From positions 1-44,483 of the IMG/VR virus record IMGVR_UViG_3300031673_000123: a DNA stretch of 44,483 bases; one strand, given 5' to 3'. Of this stretch, positions 3,776 to 43,880 are shown piece by piece (position 1 is the first letter of the stretch; every line of letters starts with the position of its first letter). The notes under the pieces were generated by a model. It searched no databases. It was not told where the DNA came from and saw nothing but the letters and a program-made list of their open reading frames with translations. Both the position numbers and the translations under genes were made by a program. Origin of the DNA: a virus.

Positions 3776-4663
3776 ATGCCTTACAGAACAAAAATCAACC
3801 CGATTATTGGCTGCTCAAAGATCAGTCCGGGTTGCGCCAACTGTTACGCAGAGCGCATGGCGAAACGTCAGAAGGCGATGGGGACTCGGGGTTATGCCGA
3901 CGTTGTTGACGAAAACGGGTGGACCGGGAAAACGGCGTTCGTTCCATCTGAATTGAAAAAGCCGTACCGTTGGAAAAAGCCGAGAAAAATCTTTACATGC
4001 TCCATGACTGATCTTTTTCATGAATCCGTGCCGGTTGAATGGCTTGACACAATTTTCAGGGTTGCCGAAGAAAACAAACGACACACTTTTCAGATACTCA
4101 CAAAACGAATATTGAGGATGGCCGAATATATCGAAGATTACAATTACGCGGTTGGTTATGACAACCGCACATGGCTTGACAATGTATGGCTTGGTGCAAC
4201 TGTCGCAACCCAGGAAGAGGTCGACCGGATTGCTCCCACCCTCGTCAAAATCAAGAATATGACCGGCTGCATTGTTTTTTTGTCAATTGAGCCGATGCTT
4301 GGGGAAATTGATCTTCGCGCATACATTCATGGGGGATTGTTCGCGGATCCAAGAGAAATAGGGAGCTTTTACAGGCCGCTTGATTGGGTTATCTGTGGCG
4401 GAGAGTCCGGACCTGGTGCAAGACCGATGCATCCCGAATGGGTTCGGGGTTTGCGGTATCAGTGCCAAAGCGCCAGTGTTCCGTTTTTTTTCAAGCAATG
4501 GGGGGAATGGGGATTTGCAAAACCCGGCGAAAAATATTACGATTGGCGAGATGATATCGGATTTCGGAAGATTGGCAAGCAAAAAGCCGGTCGTATCTTG
4601 GACGGGCGAACATGGGACGAATTTCCGACTGCCGAGGATGTCCGGAACAGGAGAAAAAAATGA
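3776..4663 (+). CDS. DUF5131 (phage Gp37/Gp68) family protein
   Basis: The 295-residue protein starts with the family hallmark NPIIGCSKISPGCANCYAE, with Cys 13, 20 and 23 in a CX6CX2C arrangement. Further family blocks follow: FTCSMTDLFHESVP (about 78-91), a SIEPMLGEI strand, and WVICGGESGPGARPMHPEWVR (about 203-223). The fold is related to radical-SAM TIM barrels, and the Cys triad could bind an Fe-S cluster; the reaction is unknown. ATG 3776 has AGGAGAGGA just upstream, while the in-frame start at 3611 would overlap the previous gene by 140 bases. It is adjacent to a methyltransferase-like gene, which hints at nucleic-acid modification. Confidence 0.85.
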   Translation: MPYRTKINPIIGCSKISPGCANCYAERMAKRQKAMGTRGYADVVDENGWTGKTAFVPSELKKPYRWKKPRKIFTCSMTDLFHESVPVEWLDTIFRVAEENKRHTFQILTKRILRMAEYIEDYNYAVGYDNRTWLDNVWLGATVATQEEVDRIAPTLVKIKNMTGCIVFLSIEPMLGEIDLRAYIHGGLFADPREIGSFYRPLDWVICGGESGPGARPMHPEWVRGLRYQCQSASVPFFFKQWGEWGFAKPGEKYYDWRDDIGFRKIGKQKAGRILDGRTWDEFPTAEDVRNRRKK

Positions 4664-9575: not shown

Positions 9576-10967
9576 ATGAGCCAGATTGACAAAATCAATG
9601 CCGAAATCGCGGAAAAGCTGACGGAATATGAAAAACACGTCGGCGATCTTCCGTCGGTCGAAAGCCGGTCGGTAGAGCAGGAAACCGGAAGGCGCAAGAT
9701 GTGGGATGTCCTACAGGAGCTGAAAGAAAAAAAGAACATGATCGAACGCGCAATTAAGGACGCTTCGGAATTTGAGGCAATGCGGGCCGAATTAGCCAAG
9801 CCGAAATCCGGCGAGGTTTCCGGGGCCACAACGCGAGACGTGATCAAGGGTAGCGGAATCCAGGTGGAACGGAACGAAAAACCGTTCCGTGACTTCGGGG
9901 CGCAGCTTTCGGCCATCGTTGCGGTGACAACCGCGAATGTCAGAGGAACGGAAGGCGGATCGAAAGTGGCCGAATACCGGAACATGCTTGCCGACGTTGA
10001 AAAACGCGGCGGGGCAACCGGTGTCAGCGCGAACGTGGACTCCGAGGCCGGGTTTATGATCCAGACCGATTTTGCAGGAGCGATGTGGGATACGGCGGTG
10101 GCAGATTCGGGGATCATTTCCCGATGCGATTCCTACAACTGCTCGGCGGACTCAAACGCCGTCGAATGGATGAGGCCAAAAGAGACTGATATTTCCGCGG
10201 ATGCCATATACGACGGGATCAAGATGTATCGTGCGGCGGAAGCCGAGTCGGTTACGGCGACAAAAGGATTTCTTGAGCGGTATCGGCTCGAGCTTGAAAA
10301 AAGCATGGGCCTCGCCTACTGGTCAGGCGAGGCGGTAAAACACGCCGCGTTCCTCGGTCAGTTCTATCAGCGCGGGTTTACGCTGGCCATTATGCGCCAG
10401 ATGGAAAACGAGATCATATCCGGAACCGGCGTTGGGCAGTGCAAGGGTATTTTGAATTCCGGAAACGCCGTGCAGTCAAAGTCGATTGAGACCGGTCAGA
10501 CGCTCGTGCAGCCGTATTTGTATCCGAACATAACCGGCATGTGGAACATTCTGCACACAGAGGACCGGGCGAACGCCATATGGATGGGCCACCCTGACAC
10601 GGAGGAGAAACTGATGCACGTCACGTTCCCGGTCGGCACTGGCGGTGTTCCGGTATTCCTCGCACCAGGTGGAGGCATCGGTCCTGGCGTGAGCACGCTG
10701 TACCAAAGGCCGGTTGTTCCAACAGACCACTGCTCGGCGGTTGGAACACCGGGGGACCTGATTCTCGCAAATCTGAACAAATACATGATCATCCGGAAAG
10801 GCACGGCTGACATGAACACAAGCATCCACGTCCGCTTTCTGTATGACGAAGAGGTTTTTCGGGTCATCATCTATTACAACGGGATCGTGAAAAATCCCAA
10901 TGCGTTGACAATCAAGAACAGCAACATCAAACGCGCCTCGTTTGTGACGTTGGCCGCGAGGGTATAA
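9576..10967 (+). CDS. Major capsid protein (HK97 fold)
   Basis: The 463-residue precursor starts with a charged coiled-coil delta domain (about residues 1-85, NAEIAEKLTEYEKHV...ELKEKKNMIERAIKDASEFEAM), which acts as scaffold and is normally removed by the adjacent protease. The capsid core follows: GVSANVDSEAGFMIQTDFA, then a long E-loop and P-domain with IISGTGVGQCKGILNSGNAV (about 285-305), and a LANLNKYMIIRKG...VRFLYDEEVFRVIIYYNG end. These are the usual landmarks of HK97-type major capsid proteins. Confidence 0.93.
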   Translation: MSQIDKINAEIAEKLTEYEKHVGDLPSVESRSVEQETGRRKMWDVLQELKEKKNMIERAIKDASEFEAMRAELAKPKSGEVSGATTRDVIKGSGIQVERNEKPFRDFGAQLSAIVAVTTANVRGTEGGSKVAEYRNMLADVEKRGGATGVSANVDSEAGFMIQTDFAGAMWDTAVADSGIISRCDSYNCSADSNAVEWMRPKETDISADAIYDGIKMYRAAEAESVTATKGFLERYRLELEKSMGLAYWSGEAVKHAAFLGQFYQRGFTLAIMRQMENEIISGTGVGQCKGILNSGNAVQSKSIETGQTLVQPYLYPNITGMWNILHTEDRANAIWMGHPDTEEKLMHVTFPVGTGGVPVFLAPGGGIGPGVSTLYQRPVVPTDHCSAVGTPGDLILANLNKYMIIRKGTADMNTSIHVRFLYDEEVFRVIIYYNGIVKNPNALTIKNSNIKRASFVTLAARV

Positions 10968-34600: not shown

Positions 34601-35674
34601 ATGAAAAAGCAAATAGTTAAAGGATTCAAAAATGGACGAAGAACAGCAACCGGTTTTATATGTAAGGATTTTGAATTTAAAGTTGGCGAAACTTATAAAT
34701 GTGATGGCAGCAGAATTAAATTGTGTATGAACGGATTCCATTTTCATAGGAATCCGTTCGATTTGTTTACGTATTACGATATGGACATTGATATTACAGT
34801 TGCAGAAATTCAAGCGTCTGGTTTTGTTATAGATGGAGAAAATAAATCTGTTTGTTCAGAAATTAAAATCATTAAAATATTGAATGAAGAAGAGTTATCT
34901 ATTTTGGGAAATACTGCAAATAATTTTGGGTGGGCCAATACAGGGAACAGTAATACAGGGTACAGGAATACAGGAAACAGGAATACAGGGTACAGGAATA
35001 CAGGGTACAGGAATACAGGAAACAGGAATACAGGAAACAGGAATACAGGGAACTGGAATACAGGGGACTGGAATACAGGAAACAGTAATACAGGGGACAG
35101 TAATACAGGGGACAGTAATACAGGGAACAGTAATACAGGGGACAGTAATACAGGGAACAGTAATACAGGGTACAGTAATACAGGGTACAGGAATACAGGG
35201 GACAGTAATACAGGGAACAGTAATACAGGGTACAGTAATACAGGGGACAGTAATACAGGGGACAGTAATACAGGGGACAGTAATACAGGGGACAGTAATA
35301 CAGGGTACAGTAATACAGGGGACTGGAATACAGGGGACAGTAATACAGGGAACAGGAATACAGGGTACAGGAATACAGGGGACAGTAATACAGGGAACTG
35401 GAATAAGACAAACAGATCATCTGGTTTTTTTAACACATTTGAATGTATTAGCGTGTTTAACAAACCGTGCGATATAAGTGTATGGAATAAAACAATAATT
35501 CCGAATTTTTTGTATTCTTCAAGTGACTGGAATGAAAATATTAGAAATATTACTATAAAAGAAATCGAGTTATTGTGTGATATTCCTAATTTTGATCCTG
35601 AAATTTTCTATGAGATTTCAGGATTAAGTATTGACGATTTGTATTATTATGAAATACTTTTTAGGAAGTTTTAA
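34601..35674 (+). CDS. NTG pentapeptide-repeat protein with DUF7666-like N-terminus
   Basis: The 357-residue protein has three parts. Residues about 1-105 (KGFKNGRRTATGFICKDFEFKVGETYKC...MNGFHFHRNPFDLFTYYD...EIKIIKIL) resemble DUF7666, a domain found at the start of phage repeat proteins. Residues about 113-267 are 31 tandem pentapeptides N-T-G-[N/Y/D]-[S/R/W], of the Pentapeptide_2 (xNxGx) type that folds as a beta-helix. Residues 268-357 form a unique helical cap. The gene is strikingly AT-rich and has other codon usage than its neighbours, is preceded by a terminator, and looks acquired. Possible roles are DNA mimicry or surface binding; none is shown. Confidence 0.8.
   Translation: MKKQIVKGFKNGRRTATGFICKDFEFKVGETYKCDGSRIKLCMNGFHFHRNPFDLFTYYDMDIDITVAEIQASGFVIDGENKSVCSEIKIIKILNEEELSILGNTANNFGWANTGNSNTGYRNTGNRNTGYRNTGYRNTGNRNTGNRNTGNWNTGDWNTGNSNTGDSNTGDSNTGNSNTGDSNTGNSNTGYSNTGYRNTGDSNTGNSNTGYSNTGDSNTGDSNTGDSNTGDSNTGYSNTGDWNTGDSNTGNRNTGYRNTGDSNTGNWNKTNRSSGFFNTFECISVFNKPCDISVWNKTIIPNFLYSSSDWNENIRNITIKEIELLCDIPNFDPEIFYEISGLSIDDLYYYEILFRKF
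34937..35401 (+). repeat. 31 tandem 15-bp repeats
   Basis: Each unit begins AATACAGG and varies only at the codons for positions 4 and 5 (AAC/TAC/GAC and AGT/AGG/TGG). Because 15 is a multiple of 3, all other frames of the array are also open, producing long false ORFs on both strands. Copy number is likely to change by slippage without shifting frame. Confidence 0.95.
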
Positions 35675-39579: not shown

Positions 39580-39660
39580 ATGATAGTAAGGAAGATAACG
39601 CTGAAATCGGAAACAACCGACAAGACGTATCGGGAATTAATTGAAACGGCAGAGGCATAG
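39580..39660 (+). CDS. 26-residue peptide (tentative)
   Basis: The ORF MIVRKITLKSETTDKTYREL plus EAETA-like end follows a good SD (AAAGGGGAA) and resembles a beta strand plus helix of a truncated RHH protein. The 103 bases before it (39477-39579) show no gene. Very short, so uncertain. Confidence 0.35.
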   Translation: MIVRKITLKSETTDKTYRELIETAEA

Positions 39661-39685
39661 GGAATTTCGCGGAAATGGAGCAAGC

Positions 39686-39814
39686 ATGAAAAAGATGTTC
39701 ATAATCACAAAAAAACAGGCCGATTGCCTGCGGAGGGAGGCGCACAGGCGGCGCGTCTCCATGTCGCAGATCATCCGGGAACTGCTCAATGACCGGTACG
39801 GGGACAAAAAATGA
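39686..39814 (+). CDS. Ribbon-helix-helix regulator, 42 residues
   Basis: MFIITKKQADCLRREAHRRRVSMSQIIRELLNDRY shows the strand-helix-helix pattern of CopG/Arc proteins: a strand, a first helix, and a second helix that begins at SMSQIIREL. GGAG lies 6 bases before ATG 39686. It is the second of three RHH genes in this window and may regulate the early operon. Confidence 0.7.
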   Translation: MKKMFIITKKQADCLRREAHRRRVSMSQIIRELLNDRYGDKK

Positions 39815-40686: not shown

Positions 40687-41006
40687 CCGGAAACCTCTGC
40701 AACGGATGCGATTTTCTCCATACCGTCGAATGCTCTGCAAAGAACGTGCCGACACGAATCATGTACGTCTGCTATTTCGGCGGCGGGGCGAAGATCGTCA
40801 AAGTCCGCAAAAAAATATCGATAAGCGAACATCCCCCAAGAAATTTTCAGATGGTCAGCGAGCTTGAGGCCATGATCGAAATCGTTGACGTCGCGATGTC
40901 CGGGTGGGCAAAAACCGAGACGAAACCGCAATGGGTGGAAGCCTGGCGGAGGCTCAAACAGAGGTTGGGAGAGGTTGAAAGGCCGGGATGGTGCGAAAGG
41001 ATATGA
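40683..41006 (+). CDS. Hypothetical protein with N-terminal Cys cluster
   Basis: The 107-residue protein begins NLCNGCDFLHTVECSAKNVPTRIMYVCYFGGG, possibly one zinc site, and continues with a helical charged part (VSELEAMIEIVDVAMSGW...WVEAWRRLKQRLGEVERPGW). It starts in ATGA overlap with the lipoprotein and ends in ATGA with the next gene. Function unknown. Confidence 0.55.
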   Translation: MTGNLCNGCDFLHTVECSAKNVPTRIMYVCYFGGGAKIVKVRKKISISEHPPRNFQMVSELEAMIEIVDVAMSGWAKTETKPQWVEAWRRLKQRLGEVERPGWCERI

Positions 41007-41344
41007 TGACCCCAAAATGGGAAACAACCGGAATCGTTGACTGTTTCGATTTGGAAAATGGCACGATTACGTTTTGGCTGGGCGACTTTGACGAATTGCA
41101 GACAACCCCAATTACCAGGGAGATGCCGGCCTGGTTGTTCGGGGAAGAAGTCTATTTCCGCGCAAAAATACTGCGGTCGTGTGTCCGTTCCGCCCGCATT
41201 GGGGGCAAACTTTATGGCCCGATTATCGATTTTGAGTTCAGGGGCTCATCGATGAGCGAGGCTGAACTGTTCGAAGAGATCGGGAAAGCGTTGACTCCGT
41301 ACACAGACAGGCGTCAATTGGCATGCGAAAAGCCAACCTTTTGA
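41003..41344 (+). CDS. Hypothetical beta-rich protein
   Basis: The 113-residue protein (WETTGIVDCFDLENGTITFWLGDFDELQTTPITREMP...VYFRAKILRSC...YGPIIDFEF) appears to be an OB- or PilZ-like beta barrel. ATG 41003 overlaps the upstream TGA; ATG 41006 with AAAGG is equally possible. Its last codons contain the first iteron (41332-41339). Function unknown. Confidence 0.5.
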   Translation: MMTPKWETTGIVDCFDLENGTITFWLGDFDELQTTPITREMPAWLFGEEVYFRAKILRSCVRSARIGGKLYGPIIDFEFRGSSMSEAELFEEIGKALTPYTDRRQLACEKPTF

Positions 41345-41598
41345 CAAAAAAGCCAACCTTTGCCAACCTGCAGGCAGTAAAAAACCCTAATGGAAATGGC
41401 ATTCTAGCCAACCTAGCCAACCTTTGCCAACCTAGAGAATACTAAAGTATTTTTTTTATAAAAAACGCGCGTGAGGGACGGGTTGACAAAACACTCATAA
41501 GAAAACAGGTTGGTTAGGTTGGTTAGGTTGGCAATTATCAATAAAAACAATGCGTTATATGTTTTGAGGTTGGTTGGCAGGTTGGTTGGCAGGTTGGC
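41332..41598. repeat. Mirror-symmetric iteron array, candidate replication origin or partition site
   Basis: Six GCCAACCT copies on the plus strand (starts 41332, 41352, 41362, 41407, 41416, 41426) are followed by six copies in reverse orientation, AGGTTGG[T/C] (starts 41507, 41516, 41525, 41567, 41579, 41591). They form 3+3 then 3+3, with gaps of 45 and 42 bases inside each half, around an AT-rich centre (41434-41506, including a T-run and ACTAAAGTATT). The RHH and VapE-helicase genes follow directly. This is the only gene-free stretch over 300 bases in the right half. Confidence 0.85.
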
Positions 41599-41621: not shown

Positions 41622-41665
41622 TTGACATTCGGAAACGGTCCGTGATATCAGCTTCATTACTGATA
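41622..41665 (+). promoter_or_regulatory. Candidate promoter and operator for RHH-helicase genes
   Basis: TTGACA (41622-41627) lies 18 bases before TATCAG (41646-41651), a modest -10. TATCAG also forms the palindrome TATCAG-N8-CTGATA (41646-41665), directly ahead of the SD GGGAGGTGA of the RHH gene, which suggests autoregulation by that protein. Confidence 0.45.
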
Positions 41666-41680: not shown

Positions 41681-41818
41681 ATGAAACGAAAAATATTCCA
41701 GATCGCCGAAGAAGACGATAAAAAGCTGAAGGATGCGGCGTGGAAGTCCAGAATGTACGAATCCGAATATATCCGGAAGGCAATTCGCGAAAAAATGGAG
41801 CGGGACTCCCGCAAATGA
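41681..41818 (+). CDS. Ribbon-helix-helix protein beside the iterons, 45 residues
   Basis: KRKIFQIAEEDDKKLKDAAWKSRMYESEYIRKAIREKME fits the RHH pattern: a strand, a helix, and a second helix starting at SEYIRKAI. GGGAGGTGA (41670-41678) precedes ATG 41681. It overlaps the helicase start by ATGA. RHH proteins often bind short repeats cooperatively (CopG, Omega, ParG), so it is a natural candidate to bind the array at 41332-41598 or the palindrome at 41646. Confidence 0.7.
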   Translation: MKRKIFQIAEEDDKKLKDAAWKSRMYESEYIRKAIREKMERDSRK

Positions 41819-43059
41819 CAACTCCCAAAAAAAAACCGACACCAAAACCGTCCCAGGTGATGGCCATGATGGAAAATGCGGGCTACAAATTTCGATTCAA
41901 CGTCGCCAATGATGAAATAGAGTGCAACGGGCGTATAATGTCGGACAGCCAGGCGGCAAAAATCAGATGCTGGGCCAAGGAAAACGAAATCGGGGTTTAC
42001 GGGAGGGACGCCCTCGGGGACATCATGACACTGTCGGCGATGCAAAATGAATATCATCCGCTTGGCGAGTATCTTTCTGGAATCACATGGGACGGCCAGG
42101 ACCACATAACGAACCTTTGTGAAAAATTCGAAAGCCCGGACCGGCCAATAAAATATGTCAACGATATCGAGACCCGGATCCCGGAACTCTATATCAGAAA
42201 ATTCCTTGTAGGGGCCATCGCAAAGGCCCTTCACGGCGAACAGAACAACGTGCTTGTGATAGAGGGCCCGCAAAACTGCGGCAAATCCAACTTCTCAAAA
42301 TGGCTGTGCTCCGGAATGCCAGAATATTTCATTGAGTCACCGCTCTACGGGAACATGAAAGACATGGACATGAGCCTGATATCCAATTTTATCTGGGAGA
42401 TATCTGAGCTTGACGCGACAACGGCAAAAAAGGACATCGCATCGATAAAGGCTTTCGTAACAAAGCACATGGTTGAGACAAGGCCGGCATATGGCAGATT
42501 CAGGATCAAAAAGCCAAGCATGGCGTCTTTCATCGGGACAGTGAATCCGGGAACCGGATTCCTCGCCGACGAATCCGGGAACAGGCGTTTCATGTGCATG
42601 CGAATATCATCGATCAACTGGGATTATGCCAAGGAATCCCCCCACCAGGTGTGGGCGCAGGCCTACCGCCTGTATATGACCGGGGAAAAATGGACACTTT
42701 CAGCGCACGAAAAGGCGTATCAGGCAGAGCACAACAAAAGCTTTGACATCGAAAACCCTGTCGAGGATTTCATACGGAAATATTTTGACATCACCGGAGA
42801 CCGGTCGGATTTTGTGGCGACGACAGAAATAATCGACACACTCAGAAAAAAAGACGTTTTACTCAGTCCGAGTCGGTCAACGTCAATGGAAATTTCCCGC
42901 GCCATGTCACGGATCGGATCAAAAAAGGCGCGGGACGGGGCCACCAGGGGATATTCCGGAATCAGGAACAACGAATTTTCGTATCAGCCAAAACCCTACG
43001 AGCCGACAAGAAATGATCCGGAGTATGAAAAAAAATTTGAGCAGCAACCTTTAAACTGA
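41815..43059 (+). CDS. VapE/VirE-type helicase (P-loop ATPase)
   Basis: This 414-residue protein has the family's HPLGEYLSGITWDGQDHI block (about 81-98), Walker A EGPQNCGKSN (150-159), Walker B FIWEISELD (192-200) and FIGTVNPGTGFLADESGNRRF (239-259), the last typical of virulence-associated E and related superfamily-3-like replicative helicases with the NRR arginine finger. It likely unwinds the phage origin, which is presumed to be the adjacent iteron array. A primase domain is absent, so a host primase or DnaG-like partner would be needed. The ATG overlaps the RHH stop. Confidence 0.85.
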   Translation: MTTPKKKPTPKPSQVMAMMENAGYKFRFNVANDEIECNGRIMSDSQAAKIRCWAKENEIGVYGRDALGDIMTLSAMQNEYHPLGEYLSGITWDGQDHITNLCEKFESPDRPIKYVNDIETRIPELYIRKFLVGAIAKALHGEQNNVLVIEGPQNCGKSNFSKWLCSGMPEYFIESPLYGNMKDMDMSLISNFIWEISELDATTAKKDIASIKAFVTKHMVETRPAYGRFRIKKPSMASFIGTVNPGTGFLADESGNRRFMCMRISSINWDYAKESPHQVWAQAYRLYMTGEKWTLSAHEKAYQAEHNKSFDIENPVEDFIRKYFDITGDRSDFVATTEIIDTLRKKDVLLSPSRSTSMEISRAMSRIGSKKARDGATRGYSGIRNNEFSYQPKPYEPTRNDPEYEKKFEQQPLN

Positions 43060-43562: not shown

Positions 43563-43815
43563 AAAATTCAAACGCGGCGGAGAAATGCATCCACCGCTTC
43601 CCACAATGGCCCAGATTTCGAAGATCGTAATCGGGGCATATGTTACGGTTGGGATAAAAAGAACATCCGGCTATGACGTTGTCGACGTGCGTGTAACTGG
43701 TTTTACAAAGAGCTTCTCAAAATCCGCCCGTTCCAGATTCACGGGTATCATTCTGGGACAGAGTTCAACGCCGATTGAATTCGGGCCGGAAAACATAAGG
43801 GAGATAGAGCCATGA
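43552..43815 (+). CDS. Hypothetical beta-rich protein
   Basis: This 87-residue protein has VIGAYVTVGIKRTSGYDVVDVRVTGFTKSF...ARSRFTGIILGQSSTPIEFGPENI, a small beta barrel. It overlaps the upstream gene by 11 bases. Its stop is embedded in the first copy of the triple repeat at 43799. Function unknown. Confidence 0.55.
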   Translation: MILEKFKRGGEMHPPLPTMAQISKIVIGAYVTVGIKRTSGYDVVDVRVTGFTKSFSKSARSRFTGIILGQSSTPIEFGPENIREIEP

Positions 43816-43880
43816 CAAATATTCTTGAGGGAGATAGAGCCATGACAGAGGGAGATAGAGCCATGACAAATATTCTTGAG
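43799..43880 (+). repeat. Three copies of an SD-plus-start unit
   Basis: GGGAGATAGAGCCATGACA occurs at 43799-43817, 43829-43847 and 43850-43868, all in one frame. Copies one and three extend identically through AATATTCTTGAG. Each carries its own GGGAG SD and ATG (43812, 43842, 43863), giving one gene three usable starts. Confidence 0.95.

Follow-up and report, generated by a model that had tools for sequence, protein, structure and literature searches.

What does the array of short repeats that lies just ahead of a helicase gene in this phage do, and which protein reads it? The window, i.e., the whole analysed record of 44,483 bases, is that of a tailed phage: a terminase large subunit, a portal and a tape measure are present, along with a RecT-like gene and further genes of DNA metabolism, and no tyrosine integrase was found in the record. 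The helicase belongs to the VapE family, a widespread group of phage proteins annotated mostly as 'virulence-associated' or 'primase'. An open-access literature search returned no paper containing both 'iterons' and 'vapE'.

Organisation of the array and of the adjoining operon

The array spans 41332–41598 and consists of six GCCAACCT copies on the plus strand followed by six reverse copies, AGGTTGG(C/T), two of them exact AGGTTGGC (41525, 41591) and four AGGTTGGT (41507, 41516, 41567, 41579). The features of the region are:

41332–41369, plus strand: outer left iteron triplet, exact GCCAACCT at 41332, 41352 and 41362
41407–41433, plus strand: inner left iteron triplet, exact GCCAACCT at 41407, 41416 and 41426
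41434–41506, no strand: AT-rich centre, proposed from its AT content as a DNA unwinding element
41507–41532, minus strand: inner right iteron triplet, AGGTTGGT at 41507 and 41516, AGGTTGGC at 41525
41567–41598, minus strand: outer right iteron triplet, at 41567, 41579 (AGGTTGGTTGGC) and 41591 (AGGTTGGC)
41622–41651, plus strand: possible promoter of the RHH-vapE operon, TTGACA-N18-TATCAG, a weak candidate read from the sequence
41681–41818, plus strand: 45-aa ribbon-helix-helix (RHH)-like protein (RHH_3), putative autorepressor
41815–43059, plus strand: VapE-family SF3/AAA+ helicase, 414 aa (PF05272, E = 2.8e-43), proposed initiator

The exact positions bear out what an earlier, sequence-only reading had described: six forward and six reverse copies, laid out as triplet, gap, triplet and then the mirror image. 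The start-to-start distances (20, 10, 45, 9 and 10 on the left; 9, 9, 42, 12 and 12 on the right) agree with the spacing it gave (9–12, one 20, gaps of 45 and 42). The mirror axis lies at about 41470 and the two halves agree within a few bases, the left copies being 40.5, 50.5, 59.5, 104.5, 114.5 and 134.5 bases from 41470 and the right copies 40.5, 49.5, 58.5, 100.5, 112.5 and 124.5. The copies at 41567 and 41579 both read AGGTTGGTTGGC, each with a second, overlapping near-copy, TGGTTGGC. The centre (41434–41506) had been called AT-rich, and its AT content is indeed 66% against 49% for the phage; its most AT-rich 40-mer (77.5% AT) is in the phage's top 0.5%. The 12 copies in 267 bp compare with a maximum of two when the whole phage was Markov-shuffled 200 times, and the array is the sole mixed-orientation 8-mer cluster within the record. 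The GC skew of the phage shows no turn at the array, a point against an origin there. The first GCCAACCT copy had been placed inside the end of the upstream coding sequence; it overlaps the final codons of ORF 40988–41344 (AAG CCA ACC TTT TGA), if this ORF is a real gene.

The array is upstream of the RHH-vapE operon, with the vapE start 217 bp past the array end. The earlier reading had an RHH gene at 41681 and a helicase at 41815 following the array: the helicase stands, and the match of the 41681 protein to RHH_3 is weak (E = 0.012, under the cut-off). The stop of the 41681 gene overlaps the vapE start (ATGA). A consensus promoter scan, in itself uninformative, did not have the candidate at 41622–41651 among its matches. 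Elsewhere in the window, a second small RHH protein (39641–39814; RHH_1 just at the cut-off) is encoded about 1.5 kb before the array. At 43800–43880, GAGGGAGATAGAGCCATGACA(AATATTCTT) is repeated, a tandem duplication of the ribosome site and start of a small gene, and the gene at 34601–35674 is made of tandem NTG-type repeats (SNTGYRNTGN), with a TAATACA word repeated around 35146–35450.

A profile of VapE relatives matches PDB 7pds (E 8.4e-81). The structure predicted for the window's VapE (model pLDDT 87.9) has as its best fold match the same entry, 'PriRep1 with dsDNA' (8.3e-19), followed by the helicase part of the NrS-1 polymerase and poxvirus D5-type helicases. The window's VapE is homologous to PriRep1, which was solved as a hexamer with dsDNA (PDB 7pds). 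In the model, the structural elements of residues 315–392 follow one another as in a winged helix, and this part may bind DNA.

Arrays beside VapE genes in other genomes

We scanned viral contigs for two close copies of the motif and then, more narrowly, for three copies; the loci were sorted by script, and nearby VapE genes were identified with a profile built in this analysis. In these blind scans, mixed-orientation GCCAACCT arrays repeatedly adjoin VapE-family (PF05272) genes. When the mirrored layout itself was scanned for, again blind, five new loci emerged: four have VapE nearby, and in three of these VapE is directly at the array. Two more motif loci come from records that each contain a VapE gene: in G001 the gene is just ahead of the array, and the array of G002 sits at the far end of its record, which would be upstream of vapE if the record were circular or permuted. 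The scan of bacterial genome contigs returned a single VapE locus (L359) among repeats that were mostly unrelated, and a direct search of viral contigs for close VapE relatives gave no match. Some candidates were set aside. A wide three-copy scan, dropped for the narrower one, yielded mostly repeats of 15-bp period, read as coding (GCC AAC CTN, Ala-Asn-Leu); three loci (L106, L060, L118) were read as chance or coding matches; and the priming site of the NrS-1 polymerase, TTTGGTTA, was rejected as the same motif, being present as two single copies of a different word.

The association was also found when the helicase, and not the motif, led the search. We fetched 80 VapE loci by protein pattern, collapsed them at 60% identity into 37 groups, and searched them for clusters in which one 8-mer occurs four or more times, in both orientations, in no more than 300 bp. 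Such clusters are present in 21 of the 37 groups, against 0–3 of 37 in ten Markov controls. The best cluster lies between -150 and +350 bp of the vapE stop in 18 of these 21 (1.43 expected, p about 1e-18), and the repeat orientations are blocked (52 runs vs 64.6 by permutation, p = 0.0008). The other 16 groups have no exact-8-mer cluster, a method that misses degenerate arrays.

A further 80 VapE loci were chosen for their closeness to the clade of the window. Among them, most of the 11 helicases at 32–39% identity to the window's VapE have a cluster beside the vapE stop, and the window's own AGGTTGGC is found there in the arrays of L498 and L503. The array of L499 is at the other end of the record, the top clusters of L506 and L507 are elsewhere than at the vapE stop, and L505 has no cluster. 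In cultured phages, the array follows vapE within about 550 bp (Marinobacter phage PS3, 3A, Flavobacterium phage FPSV-S1, pippi8-1, Alexa) or at about 2.1 kb (Persinger, ECO1230-10); four other cultured phages that we checked have no array near vapE. The array is downstream of vapE in most relatives, whereas that of the window is upstream of the operon. The earlier reading had suggested looking in related phages for the array upstream of VapE genes: the link to vapE is there, mostly with the array downstream.

The exact layout varies among the loci. On our reading of the locus maps, GCCAACCT precedes and AGGTTGGC follows the widest gap between exact copies in the window and in L063/L254, L247, L359, L082 and L088; by eye, the same arrangement is seen in L241/L262, L014/L260 and L030/L397 when one-mismatch copies are counted. 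L259, L113 and L270 differ from the mirrored layout of the window, and the array of L108 is truncated where its contig stops. A two-sided core is therefore common but not invariant. Conservation in relatives, which the sequence-only reading had set as a test, is found beside VapE genes, with an exact layout that varies. The array centres of L247 (about 4160–4230) and L030 (about 10820–10850) contain alternating CG/TG tracts, prone to form Z-DNA, and are not AT-rich.

Octamers, helicases and the reader of the array

The octamers beside the vapE stop of the nearest helicases include AGGTTGGC, AGGTTGCA, AGGGTGTC, GTTACAGA and ATGGTGCA, a variety that would follow if every helicase had sites of its own to read. 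VapE lineages appear often to have their own 8-mer, a tendency read from the cluster lists. The octamer tends to be common to close helicases: the window, L108, L254 and L359 form one clade (support 99) in a tree made by a quick method from rows partly chosen by motif. On this tree GCCAACCT requires at least five changes, and it is thus not limited to one clade.

These patterns bear on who reads the array. It could be an origin read by a host initiator or by another phage protein, with VapE merely recruited. A 12-site mixed-orientation AGGTTGGC array at 457–750 of L102 (record G004, 58,413 bases) fits this idea: no VapE was detected in that record, the gene beside the array starts MNTTMLALDLGTTTGWALSS, and the array is possibly an origin read by another protein. 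The same octamer is also arrayed, in a different layout, beside DUF5906 helicases that are VapE-like only distantly (L113, 6250–6498; L270, 1288–1511). Yet VapE lineages differ in their octamer, which close helicases tend to share, and we find a reader other than VapE very unlikely.

The variety of octamers also weighs on a structural explanation, in which replication or transcription is controlled by two-layer G-quadruplexes formed by the G-rich strand (GGTTGGTTAGGTTGG and similar stretches). The pattern GGTTGG-N3-GGTTGG is similar to the thrombin-binding aptamer, and the spacing of the right inner triplet permits a quadruplex. However, arrays at the same place in other VapE phages (GTTACAGA, GAGTAACA, TGACTACA) are without such G pairs, and the octamer's GC/A flanking bases are kept; this explanation seems to us highly improbable.

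RHH proteins bind short repeats cooperatively, and an RHH-like gene adjoins the array. Its product might coat the octamers, the array being an operator for repression of the operon or a centromere for partition of a plasmid-like prophage; an RHH/ParG-type partition site with iterons was proposed in phage B83 (PMC6669507). The relatives argue otherwise. No gene similar to that at 41681 was found, in weak similarity searches, at their octamer arrays beside VapE, and L499 has a small unrelated HTH-type gene (37–279) upstream of vapE, in the slot held by the RHH gene in the window. Of 13 relatives with an array, one has a Pfam RHH_1 match, and there it is distant from vapE; this is weak evidence because this family search also misses the 41681 protein. 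Arrays mostly downstream of vapE are not at its promoter, contrary to what an operator would suggest. As for partition, a search covering ParA-type ATPases (AAA_31) found none in the phage record. The relatives lend no support to the centromere-like site that the earlier reading had considered. A role of the array as RHH operator or centromere is thus unlikely, and the RHH protein is probably not the reader, given the relatives' arrays and the L499 slot.

A putative origin and its known counterparts

With good confidence, we read the array as the replication origin of the phage and the adjoining VapE helicase as its initiator, based on the conserved link between arrays and VapE and on published PICI and SaPI origins of the same layout (PMC6092414, PMC9894130). 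Both lines support the origin, with iterons flanking a melting region, that was suggested earlier; the accompanying statement that ordinary iteron origins are one-directional is true of many plasmids but does not apply to the VapE helicase class.

SaPI Rep and SCCmec Cch2 each bind their origin repeats through a C-terminal domain, Rep apparently as two hexamers (PMC7581432), and the C-terminal domain of VapE would recognise the AGGTTGGC octamers. SaPI origins are described as mirroring that of SV40, opposed repeats loading two head-to-head hexamers (PMC9894130). From this precedent and the symmetry of the array, we infer that the two opposed six-site sets would position two VapE hexamers face to face across the centre. 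The hexamers would then melt the AT-rich centre and depart as divergent forks. Translational coupling links the RHH-like protein to vapE, and, by analogy with Orf56 of pRN1, this protein probably serves to repress or time the operon; that it is an autorepressor is our guess.

We lean towards the broader view that two-sided iteron origins of the PICI kind are common in VapE phages and that their octamer varies from one helicase lineage to the next. If true, PICIs would not be alone in having this origin layout, contrary to a 2018 statement; origins would be readable from the sequence, and a code could be derived by which helicases recognise their octamers. The helicase-octamer pairs are raw material for finding the residues of the C-terminal domain that choose the octamer.

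Similar devices are known in several replicons. The helicase initiator of phage P4, alpha, reads short iterons through its C-terminal domain, as proposed here for VapE; unlike in the window, the P4 iterons (GGTGAACA) are in two separate regions, ori and crr. The product of orf56 in plasmid pRN1 is an RHH protein, and the position of the window array, upstream of an RHH-helicase operon, recalls the arrangement in that plasmid. There, the small repressor gene is directly upstream of, and cotranscribed with, the replication helicase (orf904), and its product controls copy number; but pRN1 is archaeal, and its candidate origin is a stem-loop downstream of orf904 with no iteron array (PMC4234260). 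In the SCCmec Cch2 origin, the helicase C-terminal domain binds short repeats beside its own gene, as we propose for the window, but these are three AAGTG repeats, downstream of the gene, and no mirrored array is described there (PMC7581432).

The PICI/SaPI rep-ori modules (EcCICFT073, SaPIs) have in common with the window an initiator helicase of SF3 type, which belongs with PriRep1 (7pds) in one family, and opposed iteron sets around an AT-rich region in an array adjoining the initiator gene. In PICIs, the oppositely oriented sets flanking the AT-rich region are located 3' of the initiator (PMC6092414), whereas the window array is upstream of the initiator operon. The octamer is also different, the window operon includes an RHH gene, and the replicon, unlike a satellite, is a complete phage that encodes terminase, portal and tape measure. 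The simplest reading of this comparison is that the array is a PICI/SaPI-type origin device carried by a phage.
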